Source: Verrucomicrobiota bacterium (lineage in GTDB: Bacteria; Verrucomicrobiota; Verrucomicrobiia; Opitutales; Puniceicoccaceae). From it: 64,000 nucleotides of DNA. Positions 18,833-59,100 of this stretch are shown here, in pieces. The notes under the pieces are model-generated. The model was not told the DNA's origin, did not search any database, and was given only the letters and a program-made list of their open reading frames with translations. The stretch covers positions 124,001 to 188,000 of the forward strand of contig JBCDMB010000001.1 of assembly GCA_038744685.1 (NCBI GenBank), written 5' to 3'. A program made the translations under genes and the position numbers. Numbering within the stretch: the first letter of the stretch is position 1; the number at the start of each line of letters is the position of its first letter.

Positions 18833-18892
18833 CTTAAGGGCACTTCGATTGACCTCACGATCCATAGGATGTTGATCGAAATGTCCTTTAAG
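18833..18892. repeat. 60-bp imperfect palindrome related to the ars-locus element ends
   Basis: The left arm starts CTTAAGGGCACTTCGATTGA and the right arm, reversed, reads CTTAAAGGACATTTCGATCA. The core GGGCACTTCGATT plus ACCTC is shared with the terminal repeats of the 313-bp element at 58423-58735. It is probably a reduced relative or a shared recognition sequence. Confidence 0.5.
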
Positions 18893-57925: not shown

Positions 57926-58405
57926 CTACTGCTTGCCGATATCTGCGGTCGCCTTCGCGATCTTTGTTCGGAGGCTGTCGAGTTTCTCGATCGGTAGGCT
58001 AATCAATAGATCGATTCGACGAGCGATTTGTGTGCTTACATCAATGAATACCTGTTCCAACTTGTCTTCCGGGGCTGCAACTGGGTCGGGTGAGCCCCAA
58101 TGAGCTACAATTGGCTGTCCAGGCCAGACTGGGCAGGTCTCCCGCGCGTTGTCGCAGACGGTTAGAACAAAATCGAAGTCGACTTTGCGGTACTCGTCCC
58201 ACGATTTGCTTCGGGCATCAGATGCATCGATAAGGTATCGATCCTTCAGTGTTTTGAGAGCGAGAGGGTGGGGCGAGTCTTTTGGGTGAGAGCCCGCGCT
58301 GAAACTCTCGAAGCGGAACGGATCCTTCTTGCGAAGAATATATTCTGCCATGATGCTACGCGCGCTGTTTCCAGTGCAGAGAAACAAGATCTTTTTTTTG
58401 TCCAT
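57926..58405 (-). CDS. arsC: Arsenate reductase, low-molecular-weight phosphatase type
   Basis: A 159-residue ArsC of the LMW-PTPase fold. The P-loop nucleophile is in FLCTGNSARS (Cys10), and the relay cysteines are in VLTVCDNARETCPVWPG. It reduces arsenate to arsenite with thioredoxin (or related) electrons. The neighbouring ArsR gene is upstream on the same strand; the two were probably 12 bp apart before a 313-bp element inserted between them. No arsenite efflux gene is seen in the window. Confidence 0.93.
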   Translation of the reverse strand: MDKKKILFLCTGNSARSIMAEYILRKKDPFRFESFSAGSHPKDSPHPLALKTLKDRYLIDASDARSKSWDEYRKVDFDFVLTVCDNARETCPVWPGQPIVAHWGSPDPVAAPEDKLEQVFIDVSTQIARRIDLLISLPIEKLDSLRTKIAKATADIGKQ

Positions 58406-58422
58406 TGTCGTTATTGTTTAGA

Positions 58423-58735
58423 GGGCACTTCGATTAACCTCCTTTGGCTCGTGATTGCAGCACCGCCGGAATCCGGGTGAGTCTGCGGAGAGGTTTGCGG
58501 GCCAGAGGCCTTCGGACCTCTCCGCTAACGCTGCCCGGAACCGGTGCTGCCGCAACCCCTTCCCTTCGGCAGGCTCAGGGCTTTGAGTCTTATCGAAAGG
58601 AGGGGCGAGACACTTTTGGATTTGAGCCGCGTTGCGGCTTCGCAGACGGGCTTCTAGCCCGCCAAGCGAAGCCGTCGCCTTGCTCAAATCCAAAATTGCT
58701 CTCGTCACGTCCAAAGGAGGTTAATCGAAGTGCCC
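58423..58735. mobile_element. 313-bp MITE-like element inserted in the arsR-arsC operon
   Basis: Perfect 25-bp terminal inverted repeats (58423-58447 and 58711-58735), starting GGGCACTTCGATTAACC, are flanked by a 4-bp direct duplication TAGA (58419-58422 and 58736-58739). The interior holds further inverted segments, including a hairpin whose arms begin TTTTGGATTTGAGC and end GCTCAAATCCAAAA. There is no transposase gene. Removing the element and one TAGA would give a continuous arsR-arsC junction. A related short palindrome is at 18833-18892. Confidence 0.85.
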
Positions 58736-59100
58736 TAGAGGTCTACTCGGCAAATCTCAGTTGCAGTAGTGGGTGAGGAGCAGGCGCAAACTCTTTTTCT
58801 TAACCGGAGATCAGCGGCGAAAGGGAAATCCTCTCCCTTCAAATCCTGTAAACACTTCAAATTCTGTTGTAAGAGTGGATTCCGCTTTTCCTTGAGTCGA
58901 TAAATGCGCCACTGGGCTCGGCGTTCGACCTCAAGGATCCCAAGACGTTTCATGTAAAGAAGCTGCTTCGACACTTGGACCTGGGTTTCGCCAAGAATCT
59001 CGGTCAGGTGACAGACGCAAAGGGGCCCTTCTTGGAGAAGATTCAGGATTCGAAGCCGGCGCACGTCGCAAAGGCATTTGTAGACCGAAACATAATTCAC
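58735..59100 (-). CDS. arsR: ArsR-family metalloid-responsive repressor
   Basis: A 121-residue winged-helix repressor. GTG 59100 is the start; the promoter lies right before it. The metal site ELCVCDL of the family appears as GPLCVCHLTEIL, with two cysteines in the alpha-3 helix. The recognition helix is around GETQVQVSKQLLYMKRLGIL. A second cysteine group, RVCACSS, is near the C-terminus. It likely represses itself and arsC until arsenite binds. The stop TAG overlaps the inserted element by one base: before insertion it would be TAA, without changing the protein. Confidence 0.9.
   Translation of the reverse strand: MNYVSVYKCLCDVRRLRILNLLQEGPLCVCHLTEILGETQVQVSKQLLYMKRLGILEVERRAQWRIYRLKEKRNPLLQQNLKCLQDLKGEDFPFAADLRLRKRVCACSSPTTATEICRVDL

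Follow-up and report, generated by a model that had tools for sequence, protein, structure and literature searches.

A mobile MITE at the arsR-arsC junction of a Verrucomicrobiota bacterium carries a conserved hairpin module common to elements with unrelated ends

Introduction

The arsR and arsC-like genes of Verrucomicrobiota bacterium GCA_038744685.1 are held apart by a 313-bp element with inverted ends, and this locus raises the question of what the element is, how it came to lie there and whether its interior is anything more than filling. The interior of a bacterial MITE is usually regarded as arbitrary sequence between two IS ends. The window analysed here is a 64-kb stretch of the forward strand (JBCDMB010000001.1:124,001-188,000), and positions without a contig name refer to it; the genome as a whole comprises 3.64 Mb in 56 contigs.

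Results

The element at the arsR stop codon

The original prediction for this locus held that a MITE-like element with perfect 25-bp inverted ends (TIRs) and a TAGA target duplication (TSD) had split arsR from arsC, changed the arsR stop codon and placed a structured RNA between two intact genes. The element was located at 58423-58735, flanked by TAGA at 58419-58422 and 58736-58739, in agreement with the predicted coordinates to the base, and the TIR was confirmed at both termini. The features of the locus are as follows:

57926-58405, minus strand: arsC-like gene encoding 159 aa of the low-molecular-weight phosphatase family (PF01451; NCBIfam ArsC cut-offs not reached)
58419-58422, no strand: left TSD, TAGA (sequence reading, TSD survey)
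58423-58447, plus strand: left TIR, 25 bp, perfect, GGGCACTTCGATTAACCTCCTTTGG (common to other copies)
58457-58553, plus strand (sense): hairpin module B (covariance model R2, 49.9 bits, E 3.1e-14)
58562-58600, no strand, approximate boundaries: inter-module extra of about 39 nt, small palindrome of the CTTCGGCAGGCTCAGGG type
58607-58703, minus strand (sense; the arsR-arsC strand): hairpin module A (R2, 87.7 bits, E 5.1e-27)
58711-58735, minus strand: right TIR, 25 bp, perfect (sequence reading)
58736-58739, no strand: right TSD, TAGA, overlapping the arsR stop codon (58735-58737)
58735-59100, minus strand: arsR, ArsR/SmtB regulator, 121 aa (PF01022; NF033788 above cut-off)

Both open reading frames are unbroken, and the ArsC-like protein is of the low-molecular-weight phosphatase/thioredoxin type according to Pfam and NCBIfam. 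arsR now ends in CTC-TAG, the TAG borrowing one base from the element; when the flanks were joined in silico, the gene ended in CTC-TAA, followed by 12 nt to the arsC ATG. The change of stop codon is real, but it results incidentally from the position of the duplication, and the last 17 nt upstream of the arsC ATG are unchanged by the element. Read outward, the right TIR (58711-58735) contains GGAGG-N9-GTG, and this GTG opens a five-codon frame (GTG CCC TCT AAA CAA TAA) that ends 5 nt before the arsC ATG (start 58405); such a frame could help or hinder arsC translation.

The predicted fold of the 313-nt RNA (-205 kcal/mol, z = -15) bears out the structured RNA expected between the genes. The element contains no transposase gene, and its frames of 98 and 110 aa were treated as chance open frames; by all features tested, it is a MITE. 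A count of exact 25-bp inverted pairs no more than 400 bp apart in the 64-kb window returned the element locus and a second count, possibly a similar pair at another place. At 18838-18886 the window also holds a mini-element of 49 bp that is flanked by TTAA and TTTA and made up almost entirely of two TIRs of the GGGCAC family (GGGCACTTCGATTGACCTCACGATCCATAGGATGTTGATCGAAATGTCC).

Copies, duplications and insertion sites

The ends of the element are common to other copies, as a search of the genome gave nine further full-length copies, making ten (313, 274 or 289 bp) in addition to fragments. Exact TSDs of 4 or 5 bp were found at 8 of these 10 copies (TAGA, TTTA, TAAA and CATA were seen, and one 5-bp CTTTT) and, with a copy from G023 (TSD TTTA) included, at 9 of 11 GGGCAC copies. 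TSDs of this family such as TAAA and TAGA resemble stop codons. When the junctions of orthologous genes in other genomes, none of them of the same strain, were compared, the arsR-arsC gap of the congener G001 was 22 bp with no insert (64% and 69% identity to the window's arsR and arsC, respectively), that of G020 was 9 bp, and in G003 the order of the two genes was reversed. From the nine additional full-length copies, the exact duplications and the insert-free gap in the congener, we conclude that the 313 bp were inserted here as a mobile element. The original prediction withstood both of its refuting conditions, which were ends not common to other copies and equal spacing in sister genomes that lack TAGA duplications.

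The four 313-bp copies are about 97% identical, which points to them as the most recently spread group, and what sets them apart from the 274-bp copies is a palindromic insert of 39 nt that separates the arms and is exclusive to the 313-bp form. This insert, which marks the four most similar copies (L001-L004), resembles a repeat in other genomes (a match in G024 and the end repeat of L168), and may be a small repeat nested in the MITE.

To DNA similarity, no copies of the element were found in G001 or G002, and plasmid searches with the window element and one G001 element gave no match. Three stretches picked out in viral contigs by a pattern scan showed no hairpin element when read.

Insertion sites were surveyed for 37 elements in four genomes (G000, G001, G033 and G048), with genes defined by simple ORF calls. 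The insertions avoid genes, 29 of 37 being intergenic vs 18% expected from random positions, and the intergenic elements are modestly over-represented near stop codons, with 11 of 29 no more than 30 bp from one vs a background of 18%.

About 12 solitary TIRs of the GGGCAC family, with T-rich outer flanks, lie elsewhere in the genome (L068-L079; C3:173594, C43:2398, C21:50712, C36:28431, C42:2832, C1:271473, C30:2702, C41:3958, C7:142458 and others). They were considered as ends of full-length ISs and rejected, as none of the twelve had a partner end within 4.5 kb where the sequence was that long. Modules, single or paired, also lie at contig ends (C1:49-143, C1:317278-317372, C4:63-157, C15:31-243, C34 and C55:1-183), so the assembly is probably interrupted by these elements and their true copy numbers are probably higher.

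The transposase partner of the GGGCAC ends

The TIR of the window element is multicopy in three other genomes (G055, G069 and G116), and a transposase-bearing relative was found: an IS5-family IS of about 1.2 kb that is intact in Cerasicoccaceae. The ISs of G116 are 1.2 kb long with the same TIR and an IS5-family transposase (DUF772 and DDE_Tnp_1; NF033581). The IS5_4 partner has the TIR GGCCACTTCGATTAACCTCG, a length of 1219 bp and, at one locus, the TSD TACA; at L102, L117 and L094 the TIR is GG(C/G)CACTTCGATTAACCTCG, and the transposase matches NF033581 IS5_4 (E 2.5e-72). In the element's own genome the single homologous transposase gene found is broken (56% identity, four stops), and an active source of transposase was not found there. 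Given this broken copy, we infer that the element was mobilised in trans. TIRs in common with an IS that has an IS5-family transposase identify the element, on sequence grounds, as a probable IS5-family derivative.

A hairpin module with a nearly invariant loop

The interior of the element consists of two inverted, imperfect hairpins of about 97 nt, in which the stems vary freely while pairing is kept and the internal loop, CAAGGCG / AACGCnGC, is almost invariant. With AAGGC first, the arm consensus is [stem]-GC-AAGGCG-[stem]-loop-[stem]-AACGCnGC-[stem]. In the window copy the loop of module A is intact (CAAGGCG / CAACGCGGC) and the motif of module B is degraded (GAGTC vs GAGGC in most copies). 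Repeats similar to the arms occur in other families of the order, where the ends are wholly different.

Two covariance models were built, R1 from 13 modules of few element families and R2 from a MAFFT alignment of 28 diverse modules. In the R2 alignment 82.5% of cells pair; shuffling lowers this to 55.5% and sliding to 36.6-45.5%. Its covariation score of 0.647 compares with 0.189 after shuffling and no more than 0.272 after sliding. Compensatory change was present in 27 of 30 pairs, and the other three are the near-invariant GCG/CGC next to the loop. Among 59 modules of less than 80% identity, the loop bases are 95-100% conserved at most positions and the stems are free. G-U outnumbers A-C in paired columns (74:38, p = 8.6e-4), an excess that fits maintenance of the fold of one strand, as RNA or ssDNA, and that is no more than suggestive, the alignment having been fitted to the model.

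Searches with Rfam 15 gave no match at E<=1 except a tRNA for four loci holding such elements, and only tRNAs in the 64-kb window at gathering thresholds. In the open-access literature no description of the element or motif was found, an absence that is weak evidence.

Distribution of the module and its exchangeable ends

R1 matched at 25 places in G001 and also had matches in G034, G032, G030 and G051; the elements found in this way carry TIRs of their own, and TIRs are not a feature of R1. R2 identified 71 modules in the element's own genome and 52 in G001, and the modules of a pair are in plus/minus order in 30 of 30 pairs and 23 of 24 pairs, respectively. The spacing between modules is 12-14 bp in most pairs and 53 bp in the four 313-bp copies. 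Across the phylum, R2 had matches (E <= 1e-5) in at least 43 of 388 genomes, a lower bound because ten candidates were scored per genome. Inverted ends with a TIR score of at least 12 were present at 22 of 28 independent loci from this search, vs 9 of 756 mispaired controls. The elements take two forms, with a single module (about 165-190 bp) or with twin inverted modules (about 270-279 bp); the distant loci L171, L176, L180 and L183 are without clear TIRs.

The length of a TSD is set by the transposase of the IS family. On module-bearing elements, GGGCAC ends go with a TSD of 4 bp (TNNA), TACC ends with 3 bp (TNA; exact in 19 of 25) and GAACC ends with 2 bp (TA; 10 of 10), and this difference indicates that different transposases move the same core. 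In G048 an IS5_3-type (DUF4096) IS of the same genome has an end identical to the GAACC ends, and G125 likewise holds another DUF4096 IS, one end of which is identical to the GGGCGTGTCTGGGAAAG ends of an element in that genome. At least three kinds of ends (GGGCAC, ATACC and CTAGAGCA) coexist on this core in the genome of the window element, and two of its loci (L076 at C7:142.1k and L149 at C36:18.2k) have CTAGAGCATTCTGAATTTATTCTGTC ends, a separate TIR family with the same twin core. The module was found inside none of 12 loci with IS5-type transposase genes. For the TACC ends, one of the unpaired TIRs read in G001 (C130) lies near a DDE-type ORF, but a second end to match it was not found; G001 also has collapsed DUF4096 ISs, which were rejected as a source because their ends differ. 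Taken together, these data reveal that the interior is a conserved module common to MITEs with unrelated ends, which goes beyond what the original prediction could see, and the recurrence of the core suggests that several transposon families carry a structured motif not described before.

Discussion

The mobility signature, the copies, the insert-free gene pair of the congener and the IS partners were all computed directly, as were the fold, the covariation and the core shared by elements with different TIRs and TSD lengths, and these are the parts on which the best explanation is built. By that explanation, a 313-bp non-autonomous IS5-type MITE would have inserted at the arsR stop codon and duplicated TAGA, presumably moved in trans by an IS5-family transposase that recognises the 25-bp ends. 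The MITE would belong to a phylum-wide set of mini-elements with one hairpin module or two inverted ones, in which the ends of several different ISs appear to have been attached to one core, and module and mobility signals would then be separate parts. The module would persist because a factor of the cell or of the element recognises its single-stranded fold, either in a transcript or in ssDNA during replication, and this recognition may help the element to be tolerated or to spread. We regard this overall account, an IS5-type MITE with a phylum-wide hairpin core whose fold is recognised in a single strand, as probable; recognition of a single-stranded fold is the most likely role, with RNA and ssDNA about even. 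Several observations weigh against the overall account: single-module elements lie 9 times in sense and 11 times in antisense to neighbouring transcripts, a lack of strand bias that lends no support to a role in read-through mRNA; the module is absent from the 12 loci with IS5-type transposase genes; clear TIRs are lacking at several distant loci; and the loop of module B is altered in the window copy. The narrower proposal, in which mini-elements of different IS5-group transposons across Verrucomicrobiota have repeatedly taken up an undescribed structured module of RNA or ssDNA that has a dedicated recognition factor, is evenly balanced between being right and wrong.

Several other readings were weighed against this account. 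The hairpins might act as DNA, much as REP/REPIN elements do, with a DNA-binding protein or one of the HUH type recognising a cruciform or lagging-strand hairpin. Strand-specific tolerance of G-T suits ssDNA as well as RNA, the elements show no transcript orientation bias, and the reverse strand of the module, GCGTT...CGCCTTGC, loosely resembles what we take to be the bulged REP hairpin core; however, the TIRs, TSDs and IS5 partners are those of DDE-transposase mobility and not of a REP-type system, and this reading seems unlikely.

We hold it similarly doubtful that the insertion is regulatory, with the hairpins serving as a processing site or attenuator in an arsR-arsC mRNA and lowering arsC relative to arsR. 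The flanking genes are co-directional, the predicted RNA is very stable, and there are precedents in NEMIS with RNase III and in ERIC (PMC2229807), but the transcribed strand of the element has no predicted intrinsic terminator, and the 17 nt leading up to the arsC start codon have stayed the same. Furthermore, the elements occupy many unrelated places, which makes an ars-specific role unlikely.

Somewhat less likely still, the element could be a plain IS5 MITE whose hairpins are neutral remnants of one ancestral MITE, with pairing kept by template switching or gene conversion and TIRs swapped through recombination with resident ISs. Intrastrand template switching can correct palindromic arms and thereby mimic covariation, and both the sequence common to members within families and the absence of orientation bias to genes are in line with neutrality. 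Against this, the stems of the 59 modules have almost fully diverged, yet their unpaired loop bases remain 95-100% conserved at most positions; arm correction would be expected to erase the asymmetric AAG / AA bulges, yet these are kept; and the G-U excess, together with the three TSD lengths on one core, which require repeated captures, also argues against neutral descent. Finally, a chance imperfect palindrome or an artefact of one assembly is refuted by the many copies, exact TSDs and phylum-wide covariance matches, and its probability is negligible.

The favoured account, of a mobile MITE with a recognised hairpin core, can be set beside known systems. Like bacterial IS5-derived MITEs, the elements are short and non-coding, with perfect TIRs, a TSD and many copies, and an IS with matching ends and a transposase is present in related genomes; here, however, a conserved hairpin module is common to MITEs with other TIRs and TSD lengths. 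IStrons join a self-splicing group I intron to different IS families (PMC4227781) and likewise combine one structural RNA-like class repeatedly with different IS mobility modules, whereas the present element has no intron, self-splicing fold or transposase gene, and no Rfam group I intron match was found in it. Caulobacter CIR repeats consist of two stem-loop arms joined by a linker and are described as having an exposed GANTC site and no end-to-end stem of the kind typical of MITEs (PMC2229807). The element shares with them two hairpin arms, a linker and intergenic location, but has an end-to-end 25-bp TIR stem, and its conserved feature is the CAAGGCG / AACGCnGC loop; GANTC was absent from the conserved positions of the 59 modules. 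By analogy, IStrons appear to be the nearest parallel for the modular design, and CIRs for the two-arm folds.

NEMIS/Correia and ERIC are also mobile elements with hairpins that lie close to genes and may be transcribed together with them, and NEMIS and ERIC RNAs can alter mRNA stability (PMC2229807); theirs is described as an end-to-end stem-loop, whereas here there are separate arms with a nearly invariant loop. REP/REPIN hairpins of 20-40 nt, with a GTAG/CGTC-type tag and a RAYT partner (PMC3116915, PMC3733652), are similar in their bulged palindromes, inverted pairs, short spacing and intergenic location, but the present modules are 97 nt long and form the interior of TIR/TSD elements, and the link found for these is to IS5 transposases.

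For the organism, the element represents an altered layout of the ars operon that is absent from its congener, and the consequence for arsenic resistance is measurable. More generally, the filling is here the conserved part and the ends are exchangeable. The covariance model finds the module family in any genome, the element families with matched ISs form a natural series usable for mobility tests, and the defined loop is usable as bait for a binding protein. The finding bears on how non-coding elements survive the loss of their transposase and on hidden structured RNAs in Verrucomicrobiota; if true, it would represent a modular partnership of a folded nucleic acid with DDE transposon ends, comparable to that of IStrons.
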